DNA of 39,050 nt from assembly GCA_021162655.1 (NCBI GenBank), contig JAGGYI010000175.1, positions 1 to 39,050 of the forward strand, in the 5' to 3' direction. Each line of letters starts with the position of its first letter. Within the stretch, counting starts at the first letter, position 1. This document shows, one piece after another, positions 17,063 to 26,004 of this stretch. The stretch is from Anaerolineae bacterium. Lineage in GTDB: Bacteria; Chloroflexota; Anaerolineae; UBA1429. Made by a program: the position numbers and the translations under genes. The notes below the pieces were generated by a model. That model saw nothing but the letters and a program-made list of their open reading frames with translations. It did no database searches and had not been told where the DNA came from.

Positions 17063-17911
17063 GTGAGGGGAGCCAAGGAGAGTGGTCCACCGATAGCCGA
17101 AAAGCGCGTCTGGATGCTTGAAAATGGGCGCCTGCAGGAGAGAACCATCGCCGTCGTGTTGGAAGAGCCCCTTGCCCTGGAGATCAATGGCCGCCAAGCG
17201 GCGGTGCTGATGCGCCTTCCGGGGATGGAAAAAGAGCTCGCCGTCGGCTTTTGCCTCAGTGAAGGGCTTGTAGAGCGCTTTGAGGACATCCTCCTTGTGC
17301 ACCACTGCGGCCAAGGCTTGCCCGCTCCCGGAGAAGACAGCCCCGAGGGAGAGGGCCTCTCAGGCAACCGAGTTCAGATGCGCGTCCGCACCGAGGCCCT
17401 GAGGGAGGAGGCACGGCTAGAAGTCATCCGCCTGGTCCGGGCAGGATGTGGTGCAGTGGATATTGAAAGAGCCGAACTGCCCTTGCAGGCTCTCGAAGAA
17501 GGCCCCCAAGTAGATGCCCAAGCCCTCCTCAAAATGGGGGAGATCATCCGCAGGGAGCAACCACTTCACAAGCTGGCGGGAGGGGTTCACGCCGCGGCGC
17601 TTTTCCACCTCGATGGCACGCTCGTCGCCCTCTGTGAAGATGTCGGCCGGCACAACGCCGTCGATAAGGCCATCGGCCACTGCCTTTTGCGCCACATCCC
17701 CCTGCGAGATAAAGTCCTCCTCTGCACGGGGAGGCTCAGCTACGAGATGGTCACCAAAGCTATCCGCATAGGCATCCCCATCCTCGCTTCTCTCTCAGCC
17801 CCCACTGCCCTCGCGGTACAACTGGCTGAACAGTTTCGCCTCACCATTGTTGGCTATTTGCGAGGACAACGCATGCGCATCTATGCTCACCCCCAACGCA
17901 TCCGCACCTAG
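17063..17911 (+). CDS. fdhD: Formate dehydrogenase accessory sulfurtransferase FdhD
   Basis: Delivers sulfur to the molybdenum cofactor of formate dehydrogenase before the cofactor is inserted. The 282-residue protein has EEPLALEINGRQAAVLMRLPG near the start, AVGFCLSEGLV, a cysteine motif RAGCGAVD with C129, the GGVHAAALF segment and the family signature CEDVGRHNAVDKAIG, then GRLSYEMVTKA. The E. coli enzyme uses a C-x-x-C pair at this position; only one cysteine is present here, which is known to vary in the family. The start is GTG, supported by AGGAGAG five bases upstream; a TTG 11 codons earlier lies within the leader hairpin. No formate dehydrogenase or cofactor genes are near. Its stop overlaps that of the convergent GT39 gene. 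Confidence 0.94.
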   Translation: MRGAKESGPPIAEKRVWMLENGRLQERTIAVVLEEPLALEINGRQAAVLMRLPGMEKELAVGFCLSEGLVERFEDILLVHHCGQGLPAPGEDSPEGEGLSGNRVQMRVRTEALREEARLEVIRLVRAGCGAVDIERAELPLQALEEGPQVDAQALLKMGEIIRREQPLHKLAGGVHAAALFHLDGTLVALCEDVGRHNAVDKAIGHCLLRHIPLRDKVLLCTGRLSYEMVTKAIRIGIPILASLSAPTALAVQLAEQFRLTIVGYLRGQRMRIYAHPQRIRT

Positions 17912-20259
17912 GGATGGATGGTGAGCCTCTCCAAAAGTTCCTTCTGCCCCATTGCCTGAAGAAATAGCCGATAGCTCCCTGGCTTGAGCTCTGCAGGCAA
18001 GGGGAGCTTGTGTATGTCGCGAACGACCTCTCCTTCCCGCCAATCAGAGGGGGGATAGCTCCCTCCCACAACCTGGATAGGCCAGCGAGCGAGGACGCGC
18101 CCCTCGCGGTCTTGCAACACCGCCTCCAAGGCATATGGGCAGAGAGCCGGCCCCTCTTTGCGCCAAAAGAGCACAAGCTCGAGCACATCCCCTGGGTGGA
18201 GAGGAGCAGTAGGCTGATGAGCGAAACCCAACCGGTGAGCATTATGCCCTAAAAGCCGCAGCCCTCCCCAGGAAACATCATCCTTGGCGCGTAAATCCAG
18301 AGCGGCAAGAGGAGGGGGGGCCTTGGCCGGCAGCACCATCAAGGGTGTCAACTGAAGAGCATCGCCGACTTGCTTGCCAGCCCAGACGATTGGCAGGCGC
18401 TGCCCATCCTCCAGGCCATACATCCCCACCACCAAAGTATGCTGGCCCGGTGGCGTCCCCGGACGAATGAGCACCCCATAGTTATCGGCGAGGGTTTCCC
18501 CAGGTTTCCAGGTAGTGGTCAGGCGTCCCCCACCTCCTGGCTCGCTATCACGCTGACCAACGATGTTCCCCCGAGCATCAACAAGGTGCACAAAAACCTT
18601 GTAGCGCTTGGCTATGGGGGCCAAAGCCTCCCAAAAGAGGGTGAGTTGGACGATTTCCCCACTGCGCGGCCGAGGTGTGAGGAGGGTGTATCCTCGCAGG
18701 CGAATTTTATCCCCCAAGACAACGTCCAAAGGATGGGCGATCTCCTGGGCAGGGGCCCGTGGCACGGCATAGACTACCAACCGCACATTACCAAACCAAC
18801 TATCCATGGCCTTGAAACAGTGGCGATCAAGCCACCCTTCGACGAACCCCTGGGGATCGCTCTCACGCGTGGCCCAAAAGATGGCATAGATGCGCGGATG
18901 CCGGGCGACGATCTCCTTGAGCTCTGCTTCAGTGCGCTGAGGATCCATCGGGCGCTGCCGCGGCAAGGGATACTGGGCAAGAGGGCCGTGATAATAATAA
19001 TCCACCGTCTCAATCTGCGAGGGAGCGTTGATGAGGATGGCATCCTGGGGGCCTGCCGTCGCTTCAATATAGGCAACGATCCCCCGGTAATCATCCCGGA
19101 AACAGGAAGGATCAAAATAAAGGCGTTGAAGGGCCAGAGCATCGCCTAGGCAAAGCCCTATCACCAACACCAAGGCCATCCCCCAAGCGACCCAGCGTTG
19201 CCACGCCAGAGCCCCCCTCAAGAAGGCCAAAGAGAACACCCCCCTTGCCTGAAGAGCCAGAAAAGCTGGACTCACCAAAAGGAGGAACTTGGACTTGAAC
19301 ATGGGACGAGAAAGAGAGAGGAGATAGAGCACTCCCAACGGCACAAGCAAATAAGCTGCTATCATCACAAGGCCCCACCCAGGGCGGGCAACCCTTCGCT
19401 CTCTGGGGAGGCAGAGCCCCAAGATGACAAGCAGAGCCTGACCCCAAGTCAACCAACGCACCCAGGGCAGCCCTTTGCTGGCAACGCCAAAGGAGAGCGT
19501 CCGCACCGCTTGAGCGCCAAAATGCCACAGGTGCAGGGGTTCACTCACCGCAGGCCAACTCCGCAAAGAGGCCCAGGAAAGCCGGAGCCAAGGCAGGTAG
19601 CTCAAGAGGAGAAGTACCTGCACCCCCACCCAAGCTCCAAGCAATCGCCAAGGGTGAAGGGCCTCCCTTCTCAGAGCGACCCAAAGCACAAGGGCCACCC
19701 CCTGGGCTATCAAGAGGAAGAAGGACAGATAATGACTGTAGATGGCCAAGAGGGAAGAAAAGAAATAAGCTGCCCAAAGCCCAAGACCCGCGCGCTTTTT
19801 CTCTGTTCGCAAAAGCGCACTCAATGCCCAGGTAGAGCAGAGCCCCAAAAGGGACATCAGGATGTACATCCGCGCCTCTTGGGAATAGTAAACCTGGAAA
19901 GGGGCCACAGCCACCAAAAAGGCCGCCAGGAGCGCCTCTTCAGGGCTCCACAGAGAGCGCAACCAGCCGTAGAGGCCAGCAACCAAAAGCGTACCCAAAA
20001 GAGCTGAGAGGGCCCGCACAGCCACCTCACTGGTACCCCAAAGCCTCACCCAAAAGTGCAAAAGGTAATAATAGAACGGCGGATGGATATCGTGAGCGGC
20101 GTTTTGGGTAATGGTGGCAAGATCTCGCTGAGCCAGGGCCACACTAGTGCCCTCATCATTCCAGAGGCTCTGGGCAGAGAGGCGATAGAAACGCAGCCCC
20201 AAGGCCAAGCCAAGGATCAAGAGAAAGGCGAGCAACTCCTTCCAACGCGCCGACCTCAT
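17908..20259 (-). CDS. GT39 (ArnT/PMT-like) glycosyltransferase with two C-terminal beta domains
   Basis: A 783-residue polytopic glycosyltransferase using polyprenyl-phosphate sugar donors on the outer face of the membrane. The first 420 or so residues have about eleven membrane segments and the GT39 marks: WNDEGTS in the first outer loop with its acidic pair, AAHDIHPPFYYYLLHFW, and PFQVYYSQEARMYIL. Residues about 420-520 form a soluble loop region. After about 540 come two similar beta-sandwich-like units, one starting GDKIRLRGYTL with VFVHLVDARGNIVGQRDSEP, the other beginning WGGLRLLGHN with ALEAVLQDREGRVLARW. Such tails are often seen in Chloroflexota GT39 proteins. The ATG at 20259 has AGGAGG upstream and overlaps the previous stop (ATGA). 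The glycoside hydrolase gene directly upstream shares its mRNA. Confidence 0.87.
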   Translation of the reverse strand: MRSARWKELLAFLLILGLALGLRFYRLSAQSLWNDEGTSVALAQRDLATITQNAAHDIHPPFYYYLLHFWVRLWGTSEVAVRALSALLGTLLVAGLYGWLRSLWSPEEALLAAFLVAVAPFQVYYSQEARMYILMSLLGLCSTWALSALLRTEKKRAGLGLWAAYFFSSLLAIYSHYLSFFLLIAQGVALVLWVALRREALHPWRLLGAWVGVQVLLLLSYLPWLRLSWASLRSWPAVSEPLHLWHFGAQAVRTLSFGVASKGLPWVRWLTWGQALLVILGLCLPRERRVARPGWGLVMIAAYLLVPLGVLYLLSLSRPMFKSKFLLLVSPAFLALQARGVFSLAFLRGALAWQRWVAWGMALVLVIGLCLGDALALQRLYFDPSCFRDDYRGIVAYIEATAGPQDAILINAPSQIETVDYYYHGPLAQYPLPRQRPMDPQRTEAELKEIVARHPRIYAIFWATRESDPQGFVEGWLDRHCFKAMDSWFGNVRLVVYAVPRAPAQEIAHPLDVVLGDKIRLRGYTLLTPRPRSGEIVQLTLFWEALAPIAKRYKVFVHLVDARGNIVGQRDSEPGGGGRLTTTWKPGETLADNYGVLIRPGTPPGQHTLVVGMYGLEDGQRLPIVWAGKQVGDALQLTPLMVLPAKAPPPLAALDLRAKDDVSWGGLRLLGHNAHRLGFAHQPTAPLHPGDVLELVLFWRKEGPALCPYALEAVLQDREGRVLARWPIQVVGGSYPPSDWREGEVVRDIHKLPLPAELKPGSYRLFLQAMGQKELLERLTIHP

Positions 20260-21725
20260 CGACGCTCCTCCTGATAAAGGCGCTGCCGAAGCACAAGCGC
20301 CAAGCTGGCCAGCAGGGCAATCCCCGCCACCAAGAGGAGGCTCCCAAAGGGCGGCTGCCGCCAAACGATCAGACCATCAAGGGCAAGTTCGCCCTCAGCA
20401 ACAGTCAGGTGTGCACGATGACGGCCATCCTTCAACCACTGGGCCACAGTAATAGCCGATGCTCCCTCTGAAGACCTGACCAGCCGAGGGAGAGACACTC
20501 GGCGCCCGTCGATGCTGAGCTCCAGATGGTCCAGCTGAGCAGGACCCCGCAACACCAAGGCCAAGCCCGTGCCTTCGAAATAGAAATCCAGGGTGGCCCC
20601 TTCTCGCCCCAAGGCATAGGCCCCCAACACGGCCTCCTCGGCACGCAGGTGCTGCCAAGGCCCCGCATAGTGCAAGGCCCAATGATCCTCCTGATGATAG
20701 CCTATGTGCACCACAGGGGGCTGCTTAGCCAACCAGGAGAGAGCCCCATAAACTGGAAGTGGCGTGAAATCTGGCTCGAGCATACGAAAGTAATACCAAG
20801 CCTGATCTTTTTCCAGATCGCTGGGCCGGCGCAGGAACCAATAGTTCATCACCCCCATCCAGGGCCACTCGCGCGCGGCACGCATATAAGCCTCTACCGC
20901 ATAGGCAGCTTGTTGTTCCTCGCTGACTCGCCCATAAATGGCCGGCCCGGCAAAATCCTTGGGGAGAGCATTCCAGCCCACCTCCGTCGCCCAGATAGGC
21001 TTGTGGGCATCGCCATGACGTACCATGATCTCGCGGATCAATTGTACCCGGGCGAAATTCGTGCGATCTGGGCTCACCCGTCGGTCATAGGGGCCCGTCC
21101 AAAGGCCATAGACCATGGCCCCCATAATATCAAAATAATCCTTGGCCCCCGCCTGGTACATCCGCTCAAGGTAGACGAGGTCGCTCATATTGCGGGCGCT
21201 CATCTCGGTCGTCTGAGCCAAGCCGGCCGCCAAGATCACACAGTCAGGATCCGCTTCCTTGGCCCGGCGGTAGGCCACCTTGAGCAGCTCCACATAAGCC
21301 TCTGGATTCGGTGGTTGATCCCCCCACTCGGGGAAGATATTTGGCTCGTTCCAGATCTGGTAATAGCGTACCCGCCCCCGATAACGGCTGACGACAGCAT
21401 AGACGAAATCGCCAAAATCCTCATAATCGTCGGGGGGAGCTTTGGTCCACCCCGGAGCATTACCAACCTTGCGCGACCAAGCAGGAGGATTATCCAAGCG
21501 GGCAATGATCTCCAACCCATATTTATTCGCCAAGTCGACGATGCGGTCGTATTTCTCCCAGGCACTCTTGTTCCAACGGTGATCCCAAAAATCACCCTTG
21601 GCCGAGATCTCGATATCCTCCCAGGGGAACTCTTGACGAATCCAATGGAAACCCGCCGCAGCGACAAGCTGCAAGCTTCGCTCCACCTTGGCGGGCTCCA
21701 CCTCCTGCTCAAGAAAGGTGTTCAC
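20256..21725 (-). CDS. Membrane-anchored glycoside hydrolase, main part (GH39/GH5-like)
   Basis: A 489-residue barrel of the clan-A type that hydrolyses beta-glycosidic bonds, probably in surface polysaccharide. It has AAGFHWIRQEFPWEDIE, the acid/base E127 in WNEPN, and nucleophile E248 in WATEVGWN. After residue 340 comes a beta-rich domain, and a hydrophobic segment at about 457-478 would anchor the C-terminus. The listed start is a GTG that is read as V of PYGVNTFLEQEVE, a motif that in related proteins lies inside the protein, not at its start. The missing N-terminal part is in the 81-codon frame immediately upstream, so the two are probably one gene broken at a G4 run (21740-21743). The downstream GT39 gene overlaps by four bases. 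Confidence 0.8.
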   Translation of the reverse strand: MNTFLEQEVEPAKVERSLQLVAAAGFHWIRQEFPWEDIEISAKGDFWDHRWNKSAWEKYDRIVDLANKYGLEIIARLDNPPAWSRKVGNAPGWTKAPPDDYEDFGDFVYAVVSRYRGRVRYYQIWNEPNIFPEWGDQPPNPEAYVELLKVAYRRAKEADPDCVILAAGLAQTTEMSARNMSDLVYLERMYQAGAKDYFDIMGAMVYGLWTGPYDRRVSPDRTNFARVQLIREIMVRHGDAHKPIWATEVGWNALPKDFAGPAIYGRVSEEQQAAYAVEAYMRAAREWPWMGVMNYWFLRRPSDLEKDQAWYYFRMLEPDFTPLPVYGALSWLAKQPPVVHIGYHQEDHWALHYAGPWQHLRAEEAVLGAYALGREGATLDFYFEGTGLALVLRGPAQLDHLELSIDGRRVSLPRLVRSSEGASAITVAQWLKDGRHRAHLTVAEGELALDGLIVWRQPPFGSLLLVAGIALLASLALVLRQRLYQEERR

Positions 21726-21967
21726 TCCGTACGGAGAGACCCCTGCATGGGCAATAGGACATAGGGGTCAGTACGCGGAGGCAGACGGGTGAGGCGGAGA
21801 TAGGCCAGCGCTAGGGTGCCCTTGATCTGCTCGCGCAGGTCTTCCTCTCCCGTCCAACTGGCCATCAAACGCCGGAGGGACCTTTGCTCGCCATAGACCA
21901 AGGCGGCCAGCACGAGGAGTGCCAGCACCAGCCAGATGAGCTTATACCATTTCGCTGTCCTCTTCAT
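21722..21967 (-). CDS. N-terminal membrane segment of the glycoside hydrolase, in another frame
   Basis: An 81-codon reading frame with a membrane segment (about residues 7-26) after a basic start, then a short soluble linker ending TDPYVLLPMQGSLRTE. Its stop overlaps the start assumed for the glycoside hydrolase by four bases (GTGA). If one G were added to the G4 run at 21740-21743, the reading would continue as QGVSPYGVNTFLEQEVE into the hydrolase. That gives an N-terminally anchored enzyme with the usual layout. It could instead be a separate small protein coupled to the next gene. The ATG at 21967 has an AGGTGAG site close upstream. Confidence 0.6.
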   Translation of the reverse strand: MKRTAKWYKLIWLVLALLVLAALVYGEQRSLRRLMASWTGEEDLREQIKGTLALAYLRLTRLPPRTDPYVLLPMQGSLRTE

Positions 21968-22052: not shown

Positions 22053-23390
22053 TCACAAGCGCTGCCGGGTGGAGCGGCGGGGTTTCTTGGACAGTGCCCC
22101 CCGGTAGCTGGGCACATCGATATCCACCAACGTACAGACCGAGGTATCCAAAAGGCGGCTCCGTAGGCGCTCGTCGAGAAGCTCCCAATCAGCAGTGGCA
22201 ACGGTAATGATGGTAGGCAAACGGGCGACATAGCGGTAGTTTAGGATCTGAAAGAGCTTCTCCTGAGCCCAGGGGGTAACGTTTTTGACGCCCAGGTCAT
22301 CGAGAACGAGAAGCCAAGCCCGGCGCACCTCGTTAAAACGCTGATCGTAAGAGACGGGGCTCCCTGGCTGGAAGGTTGCCCGCAGGTGATCGAGGAGATC
22401 GGCCGCCACTACAAAGAGGACGCGCATCCCGCTATGGGCCACTTTGTTTGCCACCGAGGCCGCCAGATGAGTCTTGCCCACGCCATAGCCCCCCCGCAAG
22501 AGCAACCAATTCACCGGGTGCTCGGCATACTCTTTGACCGTCTTGACCACCCGACGGAGATGGCGCACCTGAGCGGGCTCGAGCTCGCCACCACGATCAG
22601 AGAAAGTACCAAAAGTCATCCCACTGTAAAGACCCAGGCTACCAAAGGTCTCATCCTTGCCCTGCACGCGGAAATCGGTAGCATAGATGGGCACCGTGCG
22701 CACAAGGTTCTGATCGCGCAGGCGAGAAGCCAGACGGGGATCCATATCGGCAAAGGTCTGGTTGGTAGTGATGACGGTGGGCAGCTCAGCATTATAGCGA
22801 TAGTTCAACAACTGGTAGAGCTTTTCCACCGCCCAGGGAGTAGCATTCTGGGTACCCAGATCATCCAAAATGAGGAGCTCAATATCCCGCACCTGCTCAA
22901 AGCGCTCATCATAGCTCACCGGGCTGGTAGGGGCATAGGAGGCTCGCAGATAATCCAGCAGATCGGGCACAACAACAAAAAGCACGGGCTGCCCATGCTC
23001 CACGCGATAGTTGGCGATGGCCGCGGCCAGGTGGGTTTTCCCACAGCCATAGGGCCCCATAAAAAGGAGCCACCCCTGCGGATCCGCGGCGAACTCGCGG
23101 GCCGTATTCAACGCATCTCGCAGGCTAAAGGCCACTTCGGTAGAGACATCCTCCCCCACCTGAAAGGTCTCAAAGGTCATATGGCGCAAGTGTTGCAGGT
23201 TGCTCGCTTTACGCAGCTGCGCCAATCGCTTCTCTCGAATCTCACGGCGCTTGCAGATGCAAGGCACCGCCTTCCCAAAGAGGGGATGCCCCACCGGCAC
23301 CTTGAGGCGCACGAAACCCAGCCCACCACAGATGGGACAAACCTCTTGGCTATCTTTTTCAGAAGAAACAGGGATAGGCTTTTCTGCCAA
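22053..23390 (-). CDS. Tandem DnaC/IstB-like AAA+ ATPase, probable double helicase loader
   Basis: A 445-residue protein with two complete DnaC-type AAA+ modules in a row. The N-terminus has a zinc-knuckle-like cysteine set (C18, C21, C44, C46 in VCPICGG and PCICK). Module 1: Walker A GPYGCGKTH with K119, Walker B D176-D177 in LLILDDLGT, arginine R223 in ASRLRD. Module 2: Walker A GGYGVGKTH with K306, Walker B D364-D365 in LLVLDDLGV, and R412 in RSRLLD. Both retain all nucleotide-binding residues. Typical DnaC/DnaI loaders have a single module of about 250-300 residues, so this is a fused duplication. It follows the DnaD-like gene and dnaB in one operon, so loading of DnaB at the origin or forks is the natural role. 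TTG start with AAAGGAAG upstream. Confidence 0.85.
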   Translation of the reverse strand: MAEKPIPVSSEKDSQEVCPICGGLGFVRLKVPVGHPLFGKAVPCICKRREIREKRLAQLRKASNLQHLRHMTFETFQVGEDVSTEVAFSLRDALNTAREFAADPQGWLLFMGPYGCGKTHLAAAIANYRVEHGQPVLFVVVPDLLDYLRASYAPTSPVSYDERFEQVRDIELLILDDLGTQNATPWAVEKLYQLLNYRYNAELPTVITTNQTFADMDPRLASRLRDQNLVRTVPIYATDFRVQGKDETFGSLGLYSGMTFGTFSDRGGELEPAQVRHLRRVVKTVKEYAEHPVNWLLLRGGYGVGKTHLAASVANKVAHSGMRVLFVVAADLLDHLRATFQPGSPVSYDQRFNEVRRAWLLVLDDLGVKNVTPWAQEKLFQILNYRYVARLPTIITVATADWELLDERLRSRLLDTSVCTLVDIDVPSYRGALSKKPRRSTRQRL

Positions 23391-23405: not shown

Positions 23406-24086
23406 CTACCGCGGGCCAGAGACAGCCCTAGGTCGTGAAAAGCGCGAGCCGTCGTCCTTGCCCTCCGTTGCCCAACGCTCCAAGATGCGTTTGATATAAC
23501 GCCAATTACGCACGTTGCGCTCTACCGCGATGCGAAAGGCCTCCTCGATCCACTCTGCAGGGTAGGTAGCAGCGGCCTCCTCCAGCTCCTCCACTAAAAG
23601 GGGACGAAGGAGACCGATGTTTTCCTCATAGAGAGTAAAAATGTTGGGGCGCGGACGGGGAACATAGGGCTCGCGCACTGGCCCCACCTTATCGAGCACG
23701 AGCTCACCCCGTTTAACCTCCTGAACGGCCTTGCGCCCCTGAGGAGTATTCAAAAAAAGATAATCCGTCGTCCCCTCCTCGTCTTCGATGCTCAACTGCA
23801 AAAGAGTGCCCCGCTGCACGGCCCTGGCCACCGCTTGGTGCAAGAGCTCTACAGGGTTTTGGCCCTCTGCGCCAGCCTCCAGCGCCCGCATCAAGACTCC
23901 CTCCGCCTCCAGCTCAGCCATGGTCATATAGCGAGGATATCCCCGTTGGCGATTGAGGAACCAAAACATATAAAGCGTCACCTTGAGCTCGGCGAGATCA
24001 TCGATAGCGGGCAAGAGCTCGGCAAAAAAAAGATCGGGGATGGGGGTGAAACGCGTCTTTCCCGGAGGGAACCCAGAGAACTTCAT
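23406..24086 (-). CDS. DnaD-domain replication protein
   Basis: A 226-residue protein with an N-terminal winged-helix-like half (residues 1-110; [30 protein letters not shown]) and a C-terminal DnaD/DnaB2 domain (about 150-215). The latter begins with [21 protein letters not shown] and ends with the motif [31 protein letters not shown], which matches the family pattern well. DnaD-type proteins remodel DNA and act before helicase loading in Firmicutes. Sitting between dnaB (overlap ATGA) and the tandem loader gene, it is expected to take part in replication initiation or restart here. Confidence 0.85.
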
Positions 24087-25453
24087 ACGCTGTAATCTTC
24101 GTCAGAGAAAAATTCCTCATCTATCTCGCGCATGACCAGGTCCGAAAACTTGGTCAAGGAAGGATCAAAGTAGAGAGAAACTGTGTCTGTAGGGCCATTA
24201 CGGTGCTTGGCGACGATGATATCGGCGATGTGCTCCCGTTCCGAGGTCTCGTCGTAAAAATCCTGCCGATGGATAAACATTACCACATCGGCATCCTGCT
24301 CGATGGAACCGCTCTCTCGCAGGTCGGAGAGAAGAGGACGCTTGTCGGCCCGGCGTTCGATCTCCCGGGAAAGCTGAGAAAGCGCCACCACCGGCACTTT
24401 GAGCTCTCTGGCCAGCGATTTGAGGGAACGGGAGATATAGGCAATCTCCTGCGCGCGGTTCTCTGCCCGTCGATCGCCCCCTTCCATCAGCTGGAGATAA
24501 TCGATGATGATGAGATCGAGCTTGTATTCGGCGGCCAGACGGCGAGCCTTGGTGCGGATCTCCATCGGCGAGGGCGAAGGGGTGTCATCGATAAAGATCT
24601 GGGCCTCGGAGAGCATTCCGCTGACGCGGGTAAACTCTTCCCACTCTGTGTCCTCGATGCGGCCCAAGCGCAGCCGCTGCGAATCAATCCCCGCGTGGGA
24701 GGAGATCATCCTCTGGACAACCTGCTCGGCCGACATCTCGAGGGTGAAAAAGGCCACCACCGAATTGTAGCGCAGGGCCGCATTGCAAGCGATCGAGATC
24801 GCCAAGCTCGTCTTGCCCATGGCAGGGCGCGCCGCGATGATGATCAGATCCGAGGGCTGTAGGCCACCGAGGAGCCGATCAAGATCCACAAACCCCGTGG
24901 GCACCCCCAGCGACTCGTCGCGATGCTCCACGAGGAACTCGATGCGATCGTAATACTCTTTGATGATATCCCGAATGGGGATCAACGCCCGGCTGATGCG
25001 CCGCTGAGAAACCTCAAAGAGGATCTGCTCTGCCTTGTCGATGACCTCATCAACTTCCTCACGCTCCTCGTAAGCCAGGGCAGCGATCCTGCCGGCGGCG
25101 TCGATCAGCTGGCGCATAATGCTCGTGCGCTCGACGATATGCCCATAATACTCGACGTGGATCGAGGTGGGCACGGCATTGATCAGCGAGGTTAGGTAGG
25201 CCGCTCCTCCGACGAAATCCAACTGCCCCTGGCGCTCAAGCTCATCCGTGACGGTGACGAGGTCGAGGGGCTGGCGCTTCTCATGGAGCTTGAGGAGTGC
25301 CCGGTAGATAGCCTGGTGAGCCTCGTTGTAAAAATCCTCAGGGCGGAGAAAGCTCCCCACCTTGATGATGGCATCAGGGTCGATAAGCAAACTCCCCAGG
25401 ACCGACCTCTCGGCATCGAGGTTCTGGGGAGGGAGGCGATCAACGGAGGCCAT
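24083..25453 (-). CDS. dnaB: Replicative DNA helicase DnaB
   Basis: The hexameric 5'-3' helicase at the replication fork. The 456-residue protein has the N-terminal collar domain ([22 protein letters not shown]), a linker helix region, and a RecA-like motor with Walker [10 protein letters not shown] (K214), [16 protein letters not shown], Walker [13 protein letters not shown], and the C-terminal [17 protein letters not shown] motif. No intein interrupts it. The ATG has a GGGAG site about nine bases away and lies 3 bp after the bfn gene. It overlaps the DnaD-like gene by four bases (ATGA), so replication proteins are translated in sequence from one mRNA. Confidence 0.98.
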
Positions 25454-25456
25454 GGA

Positions 25457-25966
25457 TTAATCTCCCAAATCGTCGAGGTCCAAGGTATCGACAAAATCAC
25501 GAAAGATATCGAGGTTGTCCTCTTCCTCCCCCTGCTCCTCTTCCTCTTTGGCAGAACGAATGTCGGGAGAGGAGACGATGCCCGCCTTGTCCATCACGCT
25601 TTCTTCAACAAAGATGGGTACAGCCGTACGAACGGCCAGGGCGATGGCATCGCTGGGGCGCGAATCGATGAGCTGAAGCTCCCCATCATGGACCACTGCA
25701 ATGCGCGCATAGAAGGTGTTATTATGGAGGTCATTCACTACAATATACTGCACTGCCCCGCCCAGCTCTGCGATCACATTGGCCAGAAGGTCATGGGTCA
25801 GAGGACGAGGCACCGAGGCTCCCTGCAAACGCATCGCTATCGCCTCTGACTCGTACTGCCCGATCCAGATGGGTAGGTAACGCTCACCATGGGTCTCTTT
25901 GAGCAACACGATACGATGGCGCGAGAGCAGGCTATAGAGCACCGCGTACACGCTTACCTCGATCAC
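25457..25966 (-). CDS. Bifunctional nuclease family protein (BFN/DUF151)
   Basis: A 169-residue protein of the BFN (DUF151) family. Residues 1-135 hold the domain: GERYLPIWIGQYESEAIAMRL with its charged cluster, LTHDLLANVIAELGG, and the motif IDSRPSDAIALAVRTAVPIFV. The last 35 residues are acidic. Plant members cleave both RNA and DNA; a bacterial role is not established. The GTG start has AAGGGGGTG upstream. It is first in the operon with dnaB. Confidence 0.9.
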   Translation of the reverse strand: MIEVSVYAVLYSLLSRHRIVLLKETHGERYLPIWIGQYESEAIAMRLQGASVPRPLTHDLLANVIAELGGAVQYIVVNDLHNNTFYARIAVVHDGELQLIDSRPSDAIALAVRTAVPIFVEESVMDKAGIVSSPDIRSAKEEEEQGEEEDNLDIFRDFVDTLDLDDLGD

Positions 25967-26004
25967 GAGCGCACCCCCTTTTATGGCTCAGCAATCTAAA
26001 AATC

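Follow-up and report, generated by a model that had tools for sequence, protein, structure and literature searches.

The hydrolase encoded at the locus described here has its closest described counterparts in the GH39 family: PslG of Pseudomonas aeruginosa (PDB 5bx9, 4zn2, 9g17) and an enzyme of Bacteroides cellulosilyticus WH2 (PDB 5jvk). For its interrupted reading frame there are two kinds of precedent. One is programmed -1 frameshifting, as in dnaX and the IS3-type transposases, for which Table 1 of PMC3711429 gives conservation of the frameshift site across several homologues as a criterion. The other is the singleton frame transition, and in the treatment given by that source such transitions, when validated by homologues, are expected to stem from errors in sequencing and not from genuine indels.

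The window, that is the whole stretch of 39,050 nucleotides analyzed here, is contig C124 in our numbering of a 3.1-Mb Anaerolineae genome in 322 contigs that is 95.7% complete. On its minus strand an ORF of 81 codons (ORF1), starting at an ATG preceded by a GAGGTGA-like ribosome site, runs into one of 489 codons (ORF2), and the stop of the first overlaps the GTG of the second as GTGA (Table 1). Both frames are open between 21767 and 21725. It was originally predicted that a -1 frame change splits a single membrane-anchored glycoside hydrolase here, that the GTG is just an internal valine, and that the two parts join perfectly at a run of four guanines (G4).

Table 1. Features of the hydrolase locus, numbered along the window.
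Feature	Position	Strand	Basis or remark
ORF1, 81 codons	21722-21967	-	N-terminal membrane anchor; hydrophobic residues 4-31; ends early, in the wrong frame
ORF2, 489 codons, start GTG	20256-21725	-	GH39/PslG-like TIM barrel, beta-sandwich and C-terminal membrane helix (predicted)
Frame-change interval	21756-21769	-	Profile scan with X at the joint; column scores
C4 run, possible indel site	21764-21767	-	Inside the interval; about 2 bits below the best joint
G4 run, earlier-proposed joint	21740-21743	-	Not the frame-change site, by profile scan and column scores
Perfect 12-bp palindrome, coding S-P-Y-G	21725-21736	-	Weak 4-bp stem, -3.7 kcal/mol
Glu127 of ORF2, NEPN motif	21345-21347	-	Invariant, 19/19; aligned with NEPN of 5jvk
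Glu248 of ORF2, ATEVGW motif	20982-20984	-	Invariant, 19/19; aligned with TEIGW of 5jvk
PMT_2-type glycosyltransferase, downstream gene	17908-20259	-	Pfam; order kept in relatives

A single gene in the relatives

A match to the hydrolase is present in 59 of 60 relative genomes, a list that includes the source genome itself. In all 29 of the loci traced upstream the hydrolase frame runs on into a membrane-anchored N-terminus. Adding 80 further loci from public genome contigs gave 109 (L004-L112), from which 24 were removed as duplicates by the first 200 residues of the hydrolase. Sixty-eight of the remainder were read by motif, and the 17 without the motif by tblastn; one of the latter (L111) is cut by a contig edge and is left uncounted, so that 84 distinct relatives hold the region. 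Anchor and hydrolase form one uninterrupted open frame in every one of them. The named relatives are Chloroflexi/Anaerolineae genomes, nearly all metagenome-assembled. The nearest relative is only 72% identical. A simple hydropathy scan predicts N-terminal membrane segments in 68/68 relatives and C-terminal segments in 45/68. Thus the 81- and 489-codon frames are parts of one gene, and the prediction of a membrane-anchored glycoside hydrolase split by a -1 frame change is upheld.

The predicted product of ORF2 is a TIM barrel resembling GH39 enzymes of the PslG branch, with both presumed catalytic glutamates in place. Among solved structures its best match by sequence is 5jvk (E 2.7e-9), with PslG at E 7.6e-9. 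An AlphaFold2 model (mean pLDDT 83.2, pTM 0.76) aligns best with PslG (Z 29.6, rmsd 4.8 over 329 residues, 19% identity). PslG and 5jvk occupy Foldseek ranks 1-4, and these two together with GH39-type beta-xylosidases fill VIA-align ranks 1-12 (Z 24.7-29.6). In an alignment of 18 relatives with the window (19 sequences) two glutamates are invariant. We take Glu127, in an NEP motif, to be the acid/base and Glu248, in a TE-GW motif, to be the nucleophile. Pfam gives only sub-threshold matches to GH5 Cellulase and CE2_N for ORF2, and NCBIfam only weak matches to GH1.

The structure alignments place residue 1 of ORF2 already within the barrel. The GTG therefore encodes a residue of the first strand and is not a natural start; the supposed start is indeed just an internal valine. 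This bears on the alternative that the locus comprises two translationally coupled genes, encoding a membrane peptide and a hydrolase re-initiated at the GTGA. The overlap of stop and GTG speaks for such coupling, but the valine lies in the first barrel strand, and a properly spaced ribosome site before the GTG was not found. Despite the overlap seen here, neither a conserved stop/start pair nor the arrangement that the original prediction had named as contrary evidence, in which homologues start at the GTG downstream of a separate small membrane gene, occurs in any of the 84 relatives. Moreover, among 80 relatives whose frames are intact, 18 carry GTGA at the same V-N pair (the counts of GTGA, palindrome and G4 used a different motif, giving n = 80); the overlap thus arises incidentally from codon choice. 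On the strength of the one-frame relatives, the GTGA counts and the barrel-strand position we rejected two coupled genes, a reading that we consider very improbable.

Gene neighborhood and paralogues

The order of genes around the hydrolase is conserved in the relatives. The ATG of the downstream glycosyltransferase overlaps the hydrolase stop as ATGA (20256-20259, minus strand) with an AGGAGG-like ribosome site upstream, and the two genes are likely to be translationally coupled. A real break upstream could therefore also reduce the glycosyltransferase. The hydrolase may trim an envelope glycan together with this PMT-type neighbor.

Several other features of the region were observed. A 445-residue protein encoded at 22053-23390 (minus strand) has two tandem DnaC/DnaI/IstB-like AAA+ domains, and may be a duplicated, fused helicase loader. 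Its gene adjoins one with a DnaB_2 domain (23406-24086) and dnaB (24083-25453); the relatives keep the same order of these three genes, and the double-domain protein is matched nearly over its full length. Antisense to the hydrolase there is a 412-codon ORF (20526-21764, plus strand). It has counterparts among the antisense frames of the relatives (44% over 1.2 kb in one example) and appears to be a coding-strand shadow.

The source genome holds six more matches to the hydrolase, on contigs C284, C312, C194, C172, C169 and C219 (E 2e-120 to 2e-8), some of which sit in ORFs roughly 1000 codons long. The paralogue on C284 runs past the end of its contig, and any anchor would fall beyond that end. 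In-frame stops had been reported in distant paralogues, and the four cases checked are all the ends of shorter proteins.

Position of the frame change

Each possible crossing between the two frames was scored with an X at the joint against a profile of 68 relatives from which the window was left out. The best crossing lies at 21759-21760, between the residues PYV and PIAH, with 904.6 bits. All joints within the interval of Table 1 score 902.6-904.6 bits, and are thus within about 2 bits of the best. The joint at the G4 run (21742-21741) scores 892.8 bits, 12 bits lower. On the upstream side of G4 the window reads PIAHAGVSPYG in the hydrolase frame, where relatives have, for example, PIAHTGVPPYG, while a joint at G4 leaves five residues (LLPMQ) at odds with the family columns. 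Column scores give the same answer: the block read in the hydrolase frame scores 43.5 bits, within the range of 32.7-47.7 spanned by the 68 relatives, and reading through to G4 gives 16.8 bits, lower than all 68. Because the hydrolase frame still spells the family block PIAHAG upstream of the G4 run, the crossing lies about 15-30 bases upstream of it. Judged by the homologous sequences, the frame change is located to within 14 bases, and the perfect join at G4 that had been proposed does not hold.

A run of four cytosines (C4) falls inside the interval, and an indel in a short homopolymer is therefore possible; at C4 it would introduce a cysteine at a column for which the residues listed from the 68 relatives include no cysteine.

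Is the break a recoding signal?

The original prediction also entertained real slippage, ribosomal or transcriptional, at the G4 run, making an anchored and a truncated form. Whether at G4 or at C4, we regard programmed -1 slippage as extremely unlikely. The elements that might suggest it are the shared open stretch of the two frames, Z_ZZN-type tetramers at both runs, and a small hairpin lying 3 bases past G4. Yet inspection of the overlap 21767-21722 reveals no in-frame X_XXZ_ZZN heptamer, and in the E. coli results given in PMC4066793 tetramers alone are barely or not shifty, the G_GG.G signals being ascribed to initiation. For three stretches the predicted pseudoknot-free RNA folds are unexceptional (z -1.16, -0.25 and -0.57). 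From the true crossing as far as the G4 run, the encoded residues suit the family in the hydrolase frame only. Finally, there is no conserved frameshift site among the relatives, none of which needs a shift to read the gene. Nor is there at the break a tandem repeat, or a homopolymer of about 7 or more, of the kind used in slipped-strand phase variation, the longest runs being C4 and G4. A literature search combining all three topics found no report of a programmed frameshift in an Anaerolineae glycoside hydrolase.

The G4 run and the palindrome are themselves unremarkable. The plus strand of the window contains 178 guanine runs and 334 cytosine runs of at least four bases, and G4 occurs at the same place in 7 of 80 relatives, all with intact frames. 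The palindrome is present and perfect, as first noted. On its own it has z -3.09 against shuffles of its 12 bases, yet it can form only a 4-bp stem. Its relevance falls away, since the window has 9 palindromes of 12-bp length where 10.7 are expected and none of the 80 relatives has one at the corresponding place; it is a chance feature. Slippage at G4 with the palindrome as stimulator was thus rejected on the profile and column scores, the folds, the palindrome and G4 counts, and the literature on tetramers. Among the interpretations first offered, error or recent mutation stands as the leading one; the weight placed on slippage is not justified, with neither a conserved site nor a slippery heptamer, and no clear stimulatory fold, to carry it.

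The suggestion of a soluble form is likewise doubtful. ORF2 retains a C-terminal membrane helix (residues 457-483), so that a product without the N-terminal anchor would be tail-anchored and cytoplasmic. It is conceivable, at very long odds, that the break is fixed in the lineage and that GTGA re-initiation or low-level slippage at C4 yields a little anchor-less hydrolase beside an 81-residue membrane peptide, as a lineage-specific switch of location.

Probable error or recent mutation

Given that the gene is whole in all the relatives checked, the break most probably reflects faulty sequencing or a mutation of very recent date, and not a new two-protein mechanism. We put the probability that it is a singleton one-base indel, arising by assembly or sequencing error or by very recent mutation taken jointly, at roughly nine in ten. 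Relative to the family frame one base would have been lost from the linker that separates the membrane anchor from the first strand of the barrel, and the frame break would not be a regulated event.

Within this reading an assembly or sequencing error is, in our estimation, somewhat more likely than not, and likelier than a recent mutation. The gene is otherwise undamaged, with 489 open codons and both catalytic glutamates retained. The presence of a match in all but one of the listed genomes, together with the conserved gene order, makes error likelier than a recent gene loss.

A genuine recent indel, making the sampled strain a real frameshift mutant with a young hydrolase pseudogene, is a possibility of lesser but appreciable weight. 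Were the break real, ribosomes would stop at 21722 to leave an 81-residue membrane stub, and re-initiation at the GTGA could yield a little hydrolase, anchor-less and in the wrong compartment. A genuine mutation is consistent with one clean break at a site free of any long homopolymer; within the interval no homopolymer exceeds C4. The quality of the sequence elsewhere points the same way. Genes of the window, along with another six stretches from the same genome (59.4 kb), were screened for frame breaks against ORFs of the relatives; this screen is weak near gene ends because both pieces must pass E 1e-5. In the 28.1 kb of coding DNA (25 segments) that could be compared with relatives there was no other frame break, and a generally error-rich assembly is therefore not suggested. 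The screen returned six rows. Three belong to the hydrolase gene; the remaining three are antisense frames, located at 25332-25975, that shadow dnaB and the gene adjoining it. Several of the other window ORFs have no Pfam match; in those that do, the Pfam scans gave no sign of a domain interrupted by a frame change. Against a genuine mutation, there is no second lesion, the hydrolase part is strongly constrained (pN 0.16-0.24 and pS 0.71-0.82 against six relatives), and position and gene order are conserved in the relatives. All these counter-points are nevertheless compatible with a very young mutation.

Comparison with known systems

The record does contain the break, nothing observed calls for a new mechanism, and singleton frame transitions are already known. 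For annotation, 20256-21967 is best treated as one interrupted gene, and not as a small membrane protein followed by a GTG-started hydrolase. The locus also carries a caution, that a seemingly perfect join at a homopolymer may be the wrong joint; here comparison with homologues shifted the frame change and left neither the G4 run nor the palindrome with a part in it.

As an enzyme, the hydrolase matches PslG in its barrel, starting with residue 1 of ORF2. Unlike PslG, it belongs to a Chloroflexota family with N-terminal and often C-terminal membrane helices and an adjoining PMT-type glycosyltransferase. With 5jvk (Z 27.7) it has the catalytic glutamate motifs in common, at 22% identity; the 5jvk chain is longer, with other added parts.

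As a frame transition, the locus resembles the programmed frameshifting of dnaX and the IS3-type transposases in its -1 direction and its two overlapping open frames, and differs in having no conserved site, slippery heptamer or clear stimulator. The closest likeness is to the 'H-pseudo / Error' singletons of GeneTack as described in PMC3711429. Like these it is a single gene, validated by its homologues, in which the break has neither a conserved site nor a repeat of 7 or more, and in nothing notable does it differ from them.
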